A stretch of DNA of 5,833 bases. It comes from Chloroflexota bacterium. GTDB lineage: Bacteria; Chloroflexota; Anaerolineae; Promineifilales; Promineifilaceae. Positions 1 to 5,833 of this stretch are shown one piece after another. Position numbers and translations under genes: made by a program. The stretch is from assembly GCA_008501785.1 (NCBI GenBank), contig QQUD01000590.1, forward strand, positions 1-5,833, read 5' to 3'. The notes under the pieces are model-generated. The model was not told the DNA's origin. It saw only the letters and a list, made by a program, of their open reading frames with translations, and made no database searches. Position 1 is the stretch's first letter. Every line of letters begins with the position of its first letter.

Positions 1-368
1 GAACCTAATGTGAAACCACTACAAAAGCCTGGATAATTTGGCAGCTTATACGTTGTTTTTATATCAACAGCAAATTTGACACGTTCATCTTCAAGACTAA
101 CAAAAGATAAATCTGGATAATAGTTTTGATGCTCTGGTAATACAATTGCATATCCATATTGTTCAGCAAAGTCAAGAATTTTGGGAAAAAGATGAATTTC
201 TAAAATCTTTGAAACAATTTTTGTGTCAGACGAAATCGTGTAAATGTTTTTGTATACATCAATAAAACCTTTTACTGTCCACTGACCATCATCTGTAGAA
301 ATATTAGACTGGAGTGTTTGTACAAATGCTTGCAATTGATGCTTGAAGGTTTTTTTGATTACCGTCAT
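1..368 (-). CDS. EcoRV-family type II restriction endonuclease, N-terminal part (3' end beyond window)
   Basis: This gene reads from an ATG at 366-368 to the left edge with no stop, giving 122 codons of a longer protein (EcoRV itself is about 245 residues). EcoRV cuts GATATC to blunt ends as a Mg-dependent PD-(D/E)XK dimer. Compared with EcoRV recalled from memory, the Mg-binding Asp74, Asp90, Lys92 and the accessory Glu45 correspond to D86, D102, K104 and E57 here. All four are offset by exactly 12, so the spacing is identical. Other shared stretches are SDTK (47-50), the QN of the minor-groove Q-loop (81-82), YPD (84-86), VDIKTTY (101-107) and FTLG (119-122). A two-residue insertion falls between KTTY and FTLG. 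The recognition loop lies beyond the edge, so specificity for GATATC is inferred only. A purine-rich GAGAAAGAG sits 8 bases before the ATG. G+C is about 33%, well below the glc genes, suggesting transfer. The cognate adenine methyltransferase is not in the window. Confidence 0.9.
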   Translation of the reverse strand, partial: MTVIKKTFKHQLQAFVQTLQSNISTDDGQWTVKGFIDVYKNIYTISSDTKIVSKILEIHLFPKILDFAEQYGYAIVLPEHQNYYPDLSFVSLEDERVKFAVDIKTTYKLPNYPGFCSGFTLG

Positions 369-436
369 AAATTAGGCTCTTTCTCTTTTCTGCCAACTCG
401 ACTTGTTACTTTTTGACTTACTGGAATTTTTTTGCC

Positions 437-465
437 ATCATAAAACAAATACGGGTACATTGTAC
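437..465 (-). promoter_or_regulatory. possible promoter of the restriction gene
   Basis: On the minus strand TATGAT (437-442) matches five of six bases of a sigma-70 -10 box. With a 17-base spacer the -35 position (460-465) reads GTACAA, a poor match. The start point would lie about 60 bases before the ATG of the EcoRV-like gene. The -35 hexamer falls inside the 9+1+9 palindrome at 451-469, so a protein bound there could control this promoter. The weak -35 box and the competing terminator reading keep confidence low. Confidence 0.25.
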
Positions 466-472
466 CCGTACT
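440..472 (-). terminator. hairpin plus T-rich tract after glcDE, probable terminator
   Basis: About 35 bases past the glcDE stop the minus strand carries ACGGGTA, a CAATG loop and TACCCGT, extendable outward by an A-T pair, a G-T wobble and another A-T pair to about 10 bp. It is followed at once by ATTTGTTTTA. This is the layout of an intrinsic terminator, placed where the glc transcript should end and before the restriction gene begins. The core, 451-469, is a perfect 9-bp inverted repeat around one central base, so it could instead, or also, be an operator for the downstream gene. Confidence 0.55.
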
Positions 473-504
473 CATTAAATTCTTCACAAAATAGGGATGG
501 GATG

Positions 505-3078
505 TTAAACGAGGAATTGTTTTGGGTTCAATAGTCCAGTCGGGTCCCAACGAGACTTTAAACCGTGCATCAATGCGAGACTGTCTGGAGTGTGCTCCCA
601 TTGGTTGGCTAATGAATTAGGGGGAGAAGCAGCAATCATGGCATAACCGCTTAACGATTGGGTAGTTTTATGCAATGTTTTTAATTGCTCTATTCCCTTC
701 ATGTAGAGGAACCCGTGTACGATGTCTATCAAATAGTTGGTTGGGTGTTGTGCCAAACCTAAATTATTTATGAGTTGCGGCATGGCTTGCGGGGGAACAG
801 CGGCTCGTAAAACGCCTGATTCAGCAGATGCTTGATGCAGCCATTCTGTCCACAGGTACGTCCCTCGTGGTGAATCTGTTTGCATGATTTGGACAGCACC
901 AGCATTTTTCAGTTCATCACAAGCAGCGTTTATTTCTGCATTGACGTCTTCTTCAATGCCTTCTACGGTGTAGAGCAATATGTTTGAATACGCATTCCCC
1001 GGTGTGCGACATTGTGAGCAAAGCACAATGCTTGAGGCGATGAGGTTGTTTTGAGAAAGCAGCATCGCCCATTTGACACCTTGGGATAATTGATTGTATG
1101 GAACCATCAATGTGGTGCGTTTGCGTGGTTTGGGGAGGAGCTTTAAGGTGATTTCGGTGATCACGCCCAGGGTTCCGTATGCGCCGATGAACAGCTTGCG
1201 CAGGTCGTATCCGGCGGCGTTTTTGACAACGGGGCGACCAGCTTGCATGACACGGCCGTTTCCCAACACCACCTCCACCATCAACACCAAATCCCGAATC
1301 GCCCCGTACCGCATCCGCAGCGGAGCGTTGAAATTCGTGGACACAATCCCCCCAATCGTCGCTTCCGGCCACGGCGAAGCCAGCGGCACCCATAGCTGAT
1401 CCTTTGCCAATTCAGCCTGCAATTCAACCAGTGGTGTGCCAGCCCCAACCGTCACATACATATCATCTGGTGCATAGGATTTGATGCCGCGTAGATTTTG
1501 GAGTGAGAGGGTGATGTCAAACGGCCGTTTCTCTCCCACACCCAGCTTTCCTCCATAAATTCCAACGGACGGAACCTGACTACGATTGCCAAGCGCCACG
1601 AGTGCTGATGCTAACTCCTCTGTTGACTCAGGTGCAAAAAAGGTTGGAACTGGATCGTTTGTGGGTGCTGGAACCACAGGTTGTTCATTCGTTGTCGGAT
1701 TTTTCGGAAAGATTTTCCCAGGATTCAGCCGATAATAGGGATCAAACAATTCCTTGACTTCACGCATGGCACATAATTCGTTAGGCGAAAACATGAGCGG
1801 CATGTATGCTTTTTTCTCCAGGCCGACACCATGTTCGCCCGTGATGCTGCCCCCCATCGACACGCACAACTTCATAACTTCGCCACCAGTTGCTACCACC
1901 CGTTCTATCAACTCCTTGTCTTTCGGATCATCAATCAGAATCAGCGGATGTAGATTGCCATCTCCCGCATGAAAAACATGACCAACATGCAGGTTGTTTT
2001 GTTCACATATTTGATTGATTTGGGTGAGCGCAGCGCTCAACTTACTGCGTGGCACCACGCCATCAACCAGATAAAAGGCTGGTGCCAAGCGCGACATAGC
2101 CCCGGCTGCGCTTTTGCGTGCGTACCAAAGCTGTTCACGTTCGCGCTCAGTTTCAGCGACGTGTAGGCCGCCTGCTTCGTGCAGTTTCAAAATGGAGACA
2201 ATTTCTTGCATTTGGATTGTTAAACTATCTTCATAGCCATCCACATCAAGAATCAGCATGGCTCCAGCATCGGTTGGCAATCCAGCCCGGACGTAATCTT
2301 CAACAATCTGAATGATTTGTTGATCCATCATTTCCATTGAAGCAGGCGTCAAACCAGCGGCGATGATCGCAGAAACGGCCGTTCCCGCCTGCGCCAATGT
2401 TTCAAATACGGCCGTTAACGTCTTCACCCCCGGTGATTGACGCAGCAGTCGCAACGATGCAGCCGTAATCACCCCCAGCGTCCCTTCACTGCCAGTCAAC
2501 AGCCCCACAAAATCATACTCAGGATAATCGAATGCCTGACCGCCTAATTGGAGAATACGGCCGTTTGCCGCCACCATCTGCAAGCCCATCACATAATTCG
2601 TCGTTACCCCATATTTGAAGCAGTGCGGTCCACCAGCATTTTCTGCAATATTCCCCCCAATCGTCGATACACGTCCGCTGGAAGGGTCCGGTGGAAAAAC
2701 CAATCCGTCTGGGTCAATGATCATCCCCAACTGTTGATTCACCATTCCCGGCTCAACCACAACTGAGCGCCCCTCTGCATCATAGTCAAGCATCTGCCGC
2801 ATTAGTGCAAAGTTAAGGATAATGCCGCCGCCATGTGCCACAGCACCTCCAGACAAACCTGTTCCGGCCCCTCGTGCAACAATGGGCATGTCAAACTCAT
2901 TGGCCCAGTCCACAATCTTGGCAACATCAGCCGCCGATCTTGGAATTACAACCCCATCCGGCTGACCATAATCCAAACTCGCATCATTTTCATAGGTGAT
3001 GAGCAAAATAGGGTCAGTGATTATTTCAGCCGATGGCAACTGCTGCTGTAATTGGATAAATGCTTGATCATTTTTCAT
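505..3078 (-). CDS. glcDE: fused glycolate oxidase subunits GlcD-GlcE (FAD-binding 2-hydroxyacid dehydrogenase)
   Basis: This 857-residue protein joins two FAD-linked oxidase modules that are separate subunits (GlcD and GlcE) in E. coli. Residues 1 to about 458 are a complete GlcD. They hold the FAD-binding PCMH fold with RGAGTGLSGG near 69-78, GGNIAENAGGP at 141-151 and LTGSEGTLGVIT at 194-205, then the C-terminal oxidase domain with HAGDGNLHP (370-378), GEHGVG (414-419) and LNPGKIFP (451-458). Residues 459-479 form a Pro/Thr/Asn-rich linker. Residues 480-857 are GlcE-like, with GRPVVKNAAGYDL (614-626), IGAYGTLGVITE (631-642) and a terminal DPTGLLNP (845-852). With GlcF it should oxidise glycolate or a related 2-hydroxyacid at the membrane and feed electrons to quinone. 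The exact substrate (glycolate or D-lactate) cannot be told from motifs. The ATG start is backed by GGTGA six bases upstream. The frame is unbroken, so the fusion is real rather than a sequencing artefact. The partner glcF lies upstream on the same strand. Confidence 0.9.
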   Translation of the reverse strand: MKNDQAFIQLQQQLPSAEIITDPILLITYENDASLDYGQPDGVVIPRSAADVAKIVDWANEFDMPIVARGAGTGLSGGAVAHGGGIILNFALMRQMLDYDAEGRSVVVEPGMVNQQLGMIIDPDGLVFPPDPSSGRVSTIGGNIAENAGGPHCFKYGVTTNYVMGLQMVAANGRILQLGGQAFDYPEYDFVGLLTGSEGTLGVITAASLRLLRQSPGVKTLTAVFETLAQAGTAVSAIIAAGLTPASMEMMDQQIIQIVEDYVRAGLPTDAGAMLILDVDGYEDSLTIQMQEIVSILKLHEAGGLHVAETEREREQLWYARKSAAGAMSRLAPAFYLVDGVVPRSKLSAALTQINQICEQNNLHVGHVFHAGDGNLHPLILIDDPKDKELIERVVATGGEVMKLCVSMGGSITGEHGVGLEKKAYMPLMFSPNELCAMREVKELFDPYYRLNPGKIFPKNPTTNEQPVVPAPTNDPVPTFFAPESTEELASALVALGNRSQVPSVGIYGGKLGVGEKRPFDITLSLQNLRGIKSYAPDDMYVTVGAGTPLVELQAELAKDQLWVPLASPWPEATIGGIVSTNFNAPLRMRYGAIRDLVLMVEVVLGNGRVMQAGRPVVKNAAGYDLRKLFIGAYGTLGVITEITLKLLPKPRKRTTLMVPYNQLSQGVKWAMLLSQNNLIASSIVLCSQCRTPGNAYSNILLYTVEGIEEDVNAEINAACDELKNAGAVQIMQTDSPRGTYLWTEWLHQASAESGVLRAAVPPQAMPQLINNLGLAQHPTNYLIDIVHGFLYMKGIEQLKTLHKTTQSLSGYAMIAASPPNSLANQWEHTPDSLALMHGLKSRWDPTGLLNPKQFLV

Positions 3079-3089: not shown

Positions 3090-3122
3090 ATAAACGATAT
3101 ATTGAAAGCAAAACACGCTTTT

Positions 3123-3273
3123 GTAGGGGCGGGATGGCGCGGAGTTACCTTATCAAAACAAATCACCTTGTCTCCGCGCCATCTCGCCCGAACAGGTAAG
3201 TAACCGGGCGAGATAGGCGGGAGAAAAGATCATTCGTTTAGACCAAATGATGGCCCACCTATCCCGACCCTAC
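3123..3273. repeat. 151-bp compound palindrome (REP/BIME-like) between glcF and glcDE
   Basis: Four related G-rich arms alternate in orientation: 3123-3144 (+), 3171-3190 (-), 3205-3224 (+) and 3254-3273 (-). The first two pair over 18 bp with one G-T wobble (3127-3144 with 3172-3189). The middle two match at 16 of 20 positions as an inverted repeat across a 14-base gap. The last two pair at about 13 of 17. The outer ends are also inverted copies: GTAGGGGCGGGAT against GTAGGGTCGGGAT. The element is thus two hairpin units in opposite orientation, as in bacterial interspersed palindromic elements. It has no coding content and fills much of the 343-base gap. As RNA or single-stranded DNA it would fold strongly, which could stabilise the glcF message end or bind a transposase-like REP protein. 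Confidence 0.65.
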
Positions 3274-3292: not shown

Positions 3293-3389
3293 GGTCTTCA
3301 GGAATTCAGGAGGAGTGGAGGCTTTAGCCGGAATGGTCTCGTGAGAACCGGCTAAAGCCTCCACTCCAAACACCACGAAATCCTAAAGA
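3293..3389 (-). repeat. 97-bp dispersed repeat, copy 1, with perfect 20-bp hairpin
   Basis: Read on the minus strand, this 97-base segment aligns without gaps to 4757-4853 on the plus strand at 81 of 97 positions (hand alignment). Its core is a perfect 20-bp inverted repeat (3312-3331 with 3348-3367) around a 16-base loop. It starts 32 bases after the glcF stop. No T-run follows the stem, so it is not a classical intrinsic terminator. The flanking 3274-3292 and 3390-3421 show nothing further recognisable. Confidence 0.75.
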
Positions 3390-3421
3390 ACCATATTTTT
3401 TTAAAAAGCAAATTCAGACTT

Positions 3422-4711
3422 TCAGAATGACAAGTAAGCCATATCTAACAATTCAACAACATGCATCACCTTAGCTGGCAATCCCGCCTGACGCACGCCA
3501 GCAATCAACTGCATATGGCAGCCAGTATTGGAAACGGCAATAATGTCCACATTGGCGCGGGTGATGTCTGCAATTTTGGCGTTGAGAACGTGAACGGCCG
3601 TTTCCGCCTGCACAATGTTATAAATACCAGCACTGCCACAACACTGGTCTGGATATTGCAATTCAACAAACTGTAAGTCTGGAATGGCTTGTAGCAATTG
3701 GCGTGGTGCTTCAACCACCTTTTGCCCATGCCGCAAATGGCACGAATCAACATACGCCACACGTTTCGGCATGGCGATAGATGGCGATACATGCAGATTT
3801 TCGGCCAGGAACTCGCTCACATCTTTCACCAATTCGGCAAATCTGCAGGCGCGTTCGGCATAAACGGGATCATCTTTTAGCAGATGTGGGTATTCTTTGA
3901 GAGAGAGGCCGCAGCCGCCAGCGTTGTTGATAACGGCCGTATACGCCCCCCCTAAAAATGCATCAATATTTTGCCGTGCCAACGCCAGTGCAAACTCAAC
4001 ATCCCCCGCATGAAGCTGCGAAGCCCCACAGCAGCTTTGCTGCGGCACAAAATGAACCTCAAACCCATTCTGCTGCAATACACGCACCGTCGCCTGATTC
4101 ACCGGCGACAAAAACGCCTCCTGCACACAGCCCGTAAAAAAAGCAACACGCCCCCGTTTCTCGCCAACTGCGAGTGCCGTTTGTTTCAAATTTTGATATT
4201 TCAACGTCATAGGAGGCAAAATTGATTCGGCCGTTTTCAGCGAACCGGGCAAAAAATCAAGCCAACGCACCAGGCTTTGCAAGCCAATTACCTGATAAAC
4301 CCAGGAAAATCGCGCGATCCATTTCAACCTTCCCAAATGAGGCAACGCTTCACGCAGCCCCAACCACCGCAGCAACCGTTCCAACCTTCCTGGGGTGCGC
4401 TGCTGCTCAACCATAATGCGGGCTGTTTCCACCAGCGACCCATACGGTACGCCCGATGGACAAGCTGTTTCGCAGGAACGGCAGGCAAGACAGCGCGTCA
4501 AATGTTGTGAAAATGCGCCATTCAATGCCGCCGGTTCAATGCGCCCTTCCGCCGCCGCCTTCATCAGCACAATGCGCCCACGAGGGCTATCCATTTCCGT
4601 GCCAAACACTGCATAAGTAGGGCAAGCTTCCAAACACATGCCACAATGAATACACTGGTTGATACCAGCCTGAAAACTAGCTGAATTCAACAAATCAATT
4701 TTAGCTTTCAT
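3422..4711 (-). CDS. glcF: glycolate oxidase iron-sulfur subunit GlcF
   Basis: This 429-residue protein is the electron-transfer subunit that carries electrons from the GlcD/GlcE flavins towards quinone, on the inner face of the membrane. The N-terminal domain holds two CxxCxxCxxxCP ferredoxin motifs for [4Fe-4S] clusters, at C20/C23/C26/C30 and C74/C77/C80/C84. The rest carries two cysteine-rich CCG domains of the heterodisulfide-reductase/GlcF type: FFTGC (191-195) with SCCGA (226-230), then SCH (323-325) with QCCGS (356-360), and a late NTGC (395-398). All expected cysteines are present and the length is normal for GlcF. The frame stays open upstream to an ATG at 4891, but that would add 60 residues read through the 97-bp repeat. 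The start chosen here has GAGAGGA six bases upstream and begins just before the first cluster domain, as in known GlcF. It lies 209 bases after the transporter stop and 343 bases before glcDE, wide spacings for an operon. Confidence 0.92.
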   Translation of the reverse strand: MKAKIDLLNSASFQAGINQCIHCGMCLEACPTYAVFGTEMDSPRGRIVLMKAAAEGRIEPAALNGAFSQHLTRCLACRSCETACPSGVPYGSLVETARIMVEQQRTPGRLERLLRWLGLREALPHLGRLKWIARFSWVYQVIGLQSLVRWLDFLPGSLKTAESILPPMTLKYQNLKQTALAVGEKRGRVAFFTGCVQEAFLSPVNQATVRVLQQNGFEVHFVPQQSCCGASQLHAGDVEFALALARQNIDAFLGGAYTAVINNAGGCGLSLKEYPHLLKDDPVYAERACRFAELVKDVSEFLAENLHVSPSIAMPKRVAYVDSCHLRHGQKVVEAPRQLLQAIPDLQFVELQYPDQCCGSAGIYNIVQAETAVHVLNAKIADITRANVDIIAVSNTGCHMQLIAGVRQAGLPAKVMHVVELLDMAYLSF

Positions 4712-4724: not shown

Positions 4725-4756
4725 AAAAACAAGCAGCACAAACTAAGAAGAAAGGC

Positions 4757-4853
4757 TCTTTGGGATTTCGCGGGGTTTGGAGTCTTGGCTTTAGCCGGGT
4801 CTCGTGTATCCGTTCCGGCTAAAGTCCCCACTCCCCCTGAATTCCTGAAGACC
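4757..4853 (+). repeat. 97-bp dispersed repeat, copy 2
   Basis: This is the second copy of the 97-base element, in opposite orientation to copy 1, in the gap upstream of glcF. The hairpin core pairs 4779-4798 with 4815-4834 around a 16-base loop, the same loop size as copy 1. Four positions of the arms no longer match (one of them a G-T wobble). Both ends are conserved: a TCTTT start and a CCTGAATTCCTGAAGACC finish. The inner ends of the two copies face glcF. Confidence 0.75.
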
Positions 4854-4920: not shown

Positions 4921-5833
4921 TCACCTACCGCTAAAATATTGGGGAATGTTGAAAAGAAATCCTGTGTCTGGGTTGGGTAGCAAACCACCCATTAACCAAA
5001 GATAAACAAATGAACCGTAAAAAAGCGCCGTCGCAATCAGTGCCACACGTCTCCACAAAGGAGGTTGCAGTTCAGGTGGTAAAAAGGTGGTGTTTACATA
5101 AAGAATATGAATCGAGCTAATCACAAGCACAACCCCGGCCATGTTTGCCCCAACTTGCAGCAAGATAATCGGCTGCGAAATACGTAAGGCCACCATGCCC
5201 CAAACCACCGCGATAGCTAAAACCGTGTAGTAAATGGCGCGCACATCACCTCCACGCCAATGTCGAATGCGGTGGCTGCTGCTCCAAAGCAAATCGGCAA
5301 TGGCCCGTACCGTTCCTTCCAAAATCACAAGCTGAGTTTTGAATAAAATCCACGCACCCAGCAGTGCAGCCATAAAAGTAAAAGCAACACCTCCACGCGC
5401 TGCCATTGCGGTTCCAAGTTCGGCCATAACGGATAGGCCGGGAACGGCCGTTTCCCCATCAACAAAACTCACATACAACACCGCCGGTAAACCCATCCCC
5501 ACCAGTGCCCCCAAGAAAAAAATAAGATACTGATCAATTTGCACAATCCGCCACCAGCCGCGCCATTTGGCAAGATTCTCAGGCGTGATGGTAAATATAC
5601 TGCCCACATGAGCCAATCGAGGATGTGCGCCGCTGGCAGCTGCTGGAATGTAGCCGGTAATCTTACCCATGCCATACCCCTTATCTCGCGTCCAGTTCGA
5701 CACCATCAAATTAACCACGCCACCTGCACCAGAATAGGCGGCAAACGCCGCAATACGCTGCCAATCAGCCCCTTCAGGCAGCAAAACAAACGAGTTCGAC
5801 TGCACGTCAAATCCCACAAAACCAACCGCACCA
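4921..5833 (-). CDS. Nramp-like metal transporter, C-terminal 303 residues (5' end beyond window)
   Basis: The reading frame is open from the TGA at 4921-4923 to the right edge. The GTG at 5815-5817 that could be taken as a start is internal, since GAVGF is encoded before it without a stop. About six hydrophobic segments are visible, at residues 24-46, 102-123, 148-177, 199-218, 221-246 and 260-285 of the visible part, with a short polar tail ending NIPQYFSGR. The first contains GAGGVVNLMVSNW followed by TRDKGYGMG. That pattern resembles, from memory, a divergent bacterial group annotated as Nramp family divalent metal transporters. The DPGN motif that would confirm Nramp lies in the missing N-terminal half, and the classical MPH motif of helix 6 is not seen here. 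Another APC-superfamily carrier is therefore possible. Placement before glcF may hint at supply of iron or another metal, but the 209-base gap with repeat and hairpin argues for separate transcription. Confidence 0.6.
   Translation of the reverse strand, partial: GAVGFVGFDVQSNSFVLLPEGADWQRIAAFAAYSGAGGVVNLMVSNWTRDKGYGMGKITGYIPAAASGAHPRLAHVGSIFTITPENLAKWRGWWRIVQIDQYLIFFLGALVGMGLPAVLYVSFVDGETAVPGLSVMAELGTAMAARGGVAFTFMAALLGAWILFKTQLVILEGTVRAIADLLWSSSHRIRHWRGGDVRAIYYTVLAIAVVWGMVALRISQPIILLQVGANMAGVVLVISSIHILYVNTTFLPPELQPPLWRRVALIATALFYGSFVYLWLMGGLLPNPDTGFLFNIPQYFSGR

Follow-up and report, generated by a model that had tools for sequence, protein, structure and literature searches.

The restriction endonuclease R.EcoRV cuts its recognition sequence at the position GAT^ATC. 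According to passages in one account of the enzyme, the bases are read mainly by the R-loops, the Q-loop reads the minor groove and carries Asp74, and Lys38 intrudes at the central base pairs (PMC4081073). On plasmid pLG13 (NC_005019.1, L081), the methyltransferase gene (M) is divergent from the endonuclease gene (R), and an HTH gene overlaps the start of R. In an Acinetobacter copy, too, R is preceded by an HTH gene, while M lies convergent behind R. Two further plasmid copies, from Rhodothermus marinus (WP_244870288.1 on pRMAR01, L082) and Antarctobacter heliothermus (WP_094037314.1, L083), are arranged as R then M in tandem, and their nucleases are 57–59% identical to the R of locus L003, the query that found them.

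The window analysed here is the whole of a 5,833-nt stretch of Chloroflexota DNA and a complete contig, since the protein database gives 5,833 as the length of the longest contig for the fragment itself; its left end cuts through a gene that shares with R.EcoRV the Pfam family PF09233, the catalytic residues and the Q-loop. In a scan of GTDB contigs 279 stretches were confirmed; the best 80 of them were studied as loci, so that statements about loci concern these closest relatives. The highest identities to the fragment among them, 74–75% over 118–119 residues, belong to L001 (Anaerolineae bacterium CG2_30_58_95) and L003 (Bacterium UASB270), both of which have a long R and an M, whereas the R of the contig is cut.

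The EcoRV-family fragment

In a scan for ORFs on the minus strand, the R frame starts with an ATG and runs without a stop to base 3, the contig end leaving the N-terminal half of the gene, codons 1–122 (Table 1). The Pfam profile Endonuc-EcoRV (PF09233) recognises the fragment at E 8.9e-48 (163 bits, cut-off 25) and is covered at positions 2–101 of its 244, while NCBIfam yielded nothing at E 0.1. Among PDB chains, eight distinct sequences of R.EcoRV match at E 3.1e-14 to 3.8e-13, and 36 of 95 aligned residues (38%) are identical to R.EcoRV. In an alignment with R.EcoRV and the 73 relatives whose R ORF is at least 260 aa, E57, D86, D102 and K104 of the fragment fall on EcoRV E45, D74, D90 and K92, and Q81-N82 fall on Q69-N70; the Q-loop and Lys38 equivalents, on which family membership was tested, are both present. 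The counterparts of EcoRV T37, K38, S41, T93, T94 and Y95 are retained as well, and the catalytic residues, the Q-loop residues and the T37, K38 and S41 equivalents are kept in the contig fragment and in 73 of 73 relatives.

The fragment is thus a member of the EcoRV family, its resemblance being far beyond chance. An earlier note on this DNA had read the EcoRV active site from the same four residues (E57, D86, D102 and K104) in the codons running from 368 to 1, had seen the QN of the Q-loop as well, and had taken the gene for a divergent family member; that observation is confirmed because the profile, structure-chain and residue matches agree, and the catalytic set is intact at 38% identity to R.EcoRV. 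The note had also described the EcoRV spacing and several short stretches as conserved. This holds for the four catalytic residues, which lie at a constant offset of 12 from those of EcoRV, but FTLG, although kept, is preceded by a two-residue insertion relative to EcoRV. On the minus strand the leftover bases 1–2 read TC, in keeping with the serine found after FTLG (FTLGSHG) in the eight relatives printed; the residue at this place in EcoRV is glycine.

The complete protein would be a homodimeric PD-(D/E)XK endonuclease of type IIP, with the fragment as its N-terminal half. Some copies in the family look broken, and the unseen half of the R gene could therefore be broken too. On such a reading the gene has decayed, with the N-terminal half intact at the contig edge and either a lesion further on or M lost. 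The R ORF is shorter than 260 aa in five of the 80 loci (L002, L011, L021, L022, which is cut by a contig end, and L042), for two others (L034 and L066) the rule of the script yielded no R ORF, and five genomes (G235, G216, G202, G058 and G196) hold family pieces in different frames, where assembly errors are possible. Decay is nonetheless improbable for a fragment that runs through 122 codons with no stop and retains every catalytic residue, in a family where R reaches at least 260 aa in 73 of the 80 relatives.

Table 1. Positions of the features described in the window
Feature	Position	Strand	Basis or remark
First 122 codons of the gene (R) for a type II restriction endonuclease of the EcoRV family, ATG at 368	3..368	−	ORF, PF09233, R.EcoRV structures
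D102-I-K104 codons = EcoRV D90-I-K92	57..65	−	Alignment; codons read off sequence
D86 codon = EcoRV D74	111..113	−	Alignment; coordinates from ATG at 368
Q81-N82 codons = EcoRV Q69-N70 (Q-loop)	123..128	−	Alignment; coordinates from ATG at 368
E57 codon = EcoRV E45	198..200	−	Alignment; coordinates from ATG at 368
78-aa ORF ahead of R	365–601		Overlaps glcDE-like gene by 97 nt
21-nt palindrome, 10-nt arms, then TTTGTTTT on minus strand	450..470	−	Between glcDE-like stop and R start
GlcD-GlcE-like fusion, FAD-linked oxidase, 857 aa	505..3078	−	PF01565, PF02913; outside R-M system
Second palindromic element	3122–3194		
109-nt element, inner inverted repeat GGAGTGGAGGCTTTAGCCGG ... CCGGCTAAAGCCTCCACTCC	3293–3401, 4745–4853		Inverted pair, 81% alike
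glcF-like gene	3422–4711	−	Same strand as the fusion, which lies downstream of it
Partial Nramp-family divalent metal transporter gene, right edge	4921–5832		NCBIfam NF037982, 91 bits, cut-off 50
ACGGCCGT 8-mers	1252, 1521, 2375, 2408, 2557, 3594, 3933, 5444		Contig positions

Predicted partner gene, gene order and site specificity

In 75 of the 80 loci a gene for a Dam-type methyltransferase lies directly downstream of R, on the same strand. The 75 products form a single cluster, of which the one member scanned is a PF02086 protein (D12 class). With each ORF read from its earliest possible start codon, the overlap of R and M is exactly 4 nt in 59 of 73 measurable loci and 1 nt in five of the 73. 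The five loci with no downstream methyltransferase are L002, L007, L011 and L022, in which the contig runs out within about 250 nt past the R ORF, and L024, in which there is room after R, yet no methyltransferase. All 75 enzymes are 49–66% identical to the adenine methylase encoded beside R.EcoRV on pLG13, aligning over at least 200 residues apart from the contig-cut example of L046 (57% over 147 residues). In 77 other methyltransferase rows (the 75 loci, R. marinus and Acinetobacter) 85 columns reach a conservation of at least 95%, and the EcoRV methylase is identical at 84 of these. The nucleases of the relatives are 34–41% identical to R.EcoRV (median 37%). The partner methyltransferases are therefore nearer to that of EcoRV than the nucleases are, as expected if both proteins still act on GATATC.

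The recognition loop of the relatives is that of R.EcoRV apart from two substitutions, and both R.EcoRV and the relatives have a Dam-type partner. Using EcoRV numbering, G182, S183, N185, T186 and N188 are invariant in 73 of 73 relatives, the T187 position is alanine in all 73, and at the G184 position 55 have glycine and 18 have serine; this count omits seven of the 80 loci, namely the five with an R ORF below 260 aa together with L034 and L066. Since the relatives keep the R-loop residues and an EcoRV-like methyltransferase, GATATC is the best prediction for the specificity of the contig's system, which the earlier note had left open between GATATC and a variant. Because the loop and the methyltransferase both lie outside the contig, we infer a GATATC restriction-modification pair from these relatives. 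The enzyme would recognise GATATC and cut it bluntly as GAT^ATC, D86 and D102 holding the Mg2+. The presence of T187A throughout and of G184S in 18 of the 73 makes a small change of specificity possible, and with a median identity to EcoRV of only 37% the nuclease might be imagined to have shifted off GATATC altogether. Such a shift is very unlikely, given that the remaining R-loop residues do not vary in the 73 relatives and that the partner methyltransferases stand closer to EcoRV's than the nucleases do to R.EcoRV.

Avoidance of the site was considered as a further line of evidence for GATATC and gave a negative answer. The median ratio of GATATC to its reversed control is 3.14 in 24 carrier genomes and 3.59 in 24 non-carriers (p = 0.80), the carriers being those of the 42 PF09233 genomes whose matches were judged near-complete by eye; GATATC is not rarer in carriers, so the host genomes lend the specificity no support. 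Across the 80 loci GATATC occurs at 0.53 of its Markov expectation, a value that is not singular, as AGATCT, TTCGAA, TACGTA and TCTAGA stand at 0.49–0.56 among the 24 palindromes tested. The contig itself has no copy against 0.57 expected. The literature, among the matches listed, held nothing specific on EcoRV homologues or GATATC methylation in Chloroflexota. For lake Chloroflexi the methylation motifs GANTC, TTAA and GCWGC are described, in a main text that does not mention GATATC (PMC6329791).

The order of R then M in tandem in the contig's relatives is unlike EcoRV's own layout, and no controller of the EcoRV kind was detected in them. No counterpart of the HTH protein of EcoRV or of Acinetobacter turned up in the 80 loci, where tblastn gave two hits with a best E of 0.54. 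Among neighbouring ORFs of at least 90 aa, leaving aside M and those antisense to R or M, no cluster exceeds seven loci. Small ORFs (45–200 aa) ahead of R were clustered separately because the first clustering could miss a controller. Six of 76 loci fall in the largest cluster, which is the beginning of R itself, and the next two comprise four and three loci; no family of small ORFs is shared beyond the R start, and a shared controller was rejected. The contig, in which no HTH controller gene was found directly ahead of R, agrees with a controller-free tandem as far as its sequence reaches. For EcoRI, M has an internal promoter; by analogy, one might guess that an internal promoter lets M be made before R in the tandem layout.

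The locus on the contig is very probably a two-gene phage-defence cassette, R then M, predicted to encode a GATATC-specific EcoRV-family endonuclease and a Dam-type methyltransferase. The partner predicted from the relatives would lie left of base 1, off the contig, as an N6-adenine methyltransferase gene sharing a few bases with the end of R, and its product would protect the host's own GATATC sites. Together R and M would act in defence against phage as a tandem with no controller.

The remainder of the contig

The 78-aa ORF ahead of R is probably not a gene. It matches nothing in Pfam or NCBIfam at E 0.1, no homologue was found, and the 80 loci hold no counterpart (best tblastn E 4.1); it was accordingly ruled out as a controller or as the end of a methyltransferase gene. 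Between the stop of the glcDE-like gene and the start of R lies a palindrome, whose fold over 46 nt (−18.3 kcal/mol, z −5.0) is matched in stability by none of 200 shuffles. Part of the T-run that follows it pairs inside the predicted stem, and a consensus terminator scan did not have this palindrome among its matches. The strong fold and the T-run suggest that the upstream transcript may end here, and the element is a possible terminator of the preceding gene that would isolate R from it. The sole promoter-like match on the minus strand in 300–640 is at 508–479, ahead of the palindrome. A role as operator was rejected because the upstream palindromes of the relatives do not resemble that of the contig; by the criteria used (arm at least 8, spacer at most 3, within the 160 nt upstream of the R match) they occur in six of 78 relatives, and L035 and L047 have one in common.

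The best NCBIfam models for the long FAD-linked oxidase gene are glcD and GlcE, both below their cut-offs, and fused GlcD-GlcE-like frames of 915 and 903 aa also occur in genomes G008 and G213. The inverted pair of 109-nt elements flanks the glcF-like gene, and these elements and the second palindromic one look like intergenic repeats of the REP/MITE type. The transporter gene at the right edge, identified by NCBIfam, has no Pfam match at E 0.1.

The contig also holds eight copies of the octamer palindrome ACGGCCGT, against a mean of 0.08 and a maximum of 2 in 200 shuffles, and this may be a more interesting feature of the contig than the R fragment. The 5.9-Mb genome that contains L026, titled Anaerolineales bacterium (G001), has 6,777 copies, with 392 of the reversed control, and nine other genomes compared with it have 2–55. 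Over 1,000 copies are present in 11 of the 298 genomes sampled from the class of G001 (G001, G142, G160, G176, G203, G213, G223, G243, G253, G263 and G290), with a maximum of 13,708 in 6.9 Mb; the other 287 always have fewer than 700, and six of them have none. The loci in which ACGGCCGT was noted are the contig, L026, L089–L091 and L093–L098. In 14 stretches (the contig, L026 and 12 that were fetched, two of these also from the genome of L026 and one all N) there are 216 copies, 201 of which lie inside ORFs of at least 120 codons, which make up 89% of the sequence; only two copies are in the stretch from G290 and one in that from G213. Including the flanks, the palindromic consensus lengthens to about GGnAACGGCCGTTnCC, which is symmetric by construction because both strands were pooled; each outer G or C is present in about half of the copies and A/T beside the core in 55%. 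The palindrome resembles the HIP1 element of cyanobacteria (GCGATCGC) in being highly iterated. The word 'Chloroflex' does not occur in the main text of the HIP1 paper (PMC4390886), and among the matches listed from one literature collection there was no report of ACGGCCGT as an iterated palindrome in Chloroflexota.

Distribution and significance of the family

The earlier note had called the fragment uncatalogued in appearance and EcoRV-type enzymes few, and neither description holds. Pfam names the fragment directly, and of the 12 plasmid records among 72,556 that match the R of L003, those of R. marinus and A. heliothermus already bear the annotation 'EcoRV family type II restriction endonuclease'. 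In a protein search, 684 of 686 word-sharing candidates, the fragment itself counted, match at E ≤0.001, the closest among the matches listed being P0002 (77% identity) and P0003 (76%), and two full-length relatives that were scanned are PF09233 proteins (E about 6e-117). To these 684 proteins and the 279 GTDB stretches can be added the class of G001, in which PF09233 occurs in 42 of the 298 sampled genomes and exceeds its cut-off in 41; none of 14 well-known control genomes has a match. The sole matches to the R of L003 among phage records are the two entries of one haloarchaeal virus, at 27.5% identity. Six loci on IMG/VR contigs classed as viral (L113–L118) have a relative of the L001 nuclease, with 64% identity in one and 52% in five whose match statistics are equal. 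The shortened ORFs of L002, L021 and L042 and the five genomes with copies in pieces look as if R genes of the family sometimes decay. The fragment is real but ordinary, because the phage-defence family to which it belongs is known and fairly common.

A tree of 85 rows, built on 119 columns of the N-terminal part with a rough bootstrap, separates EcoRV and the Acinetobacter copy from the other 83 rows with a support of 100/100. The contig fragment is on the 83-row side, at its base and with no resolved branching. The R. marinus and A. heliothermus copies fall on the same side, away from EcoRV and Acinetobacter, on long branches that do not resolve their placement. The tree requires eight changes for the Pseudomonadota rows and five for those of Chloroflexota, a pattern compatible with transfer between phyla, though no proof of it. 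There is a small chance that this large controller-free tandem branch, spread over many phyla, reads a relaxed or altered site, or that it times M before R in a manner unlike EcoRV's controller.

The contig adds one cut-off member to a known family of restriction enzymes and leaves the general view unchanged. In the survey around it, 41 of 298 genomes from one class of environmental bacteria carry EcoRV-type genes, which are thus not rare in that class. The compact R-M pair with no detectable controller in 75 of the 80 closest loci makes the group a source of candidates for natural GATATC isoschizomers, and the controller-free branch is a comparison case for the timing of restriction-modification genes.
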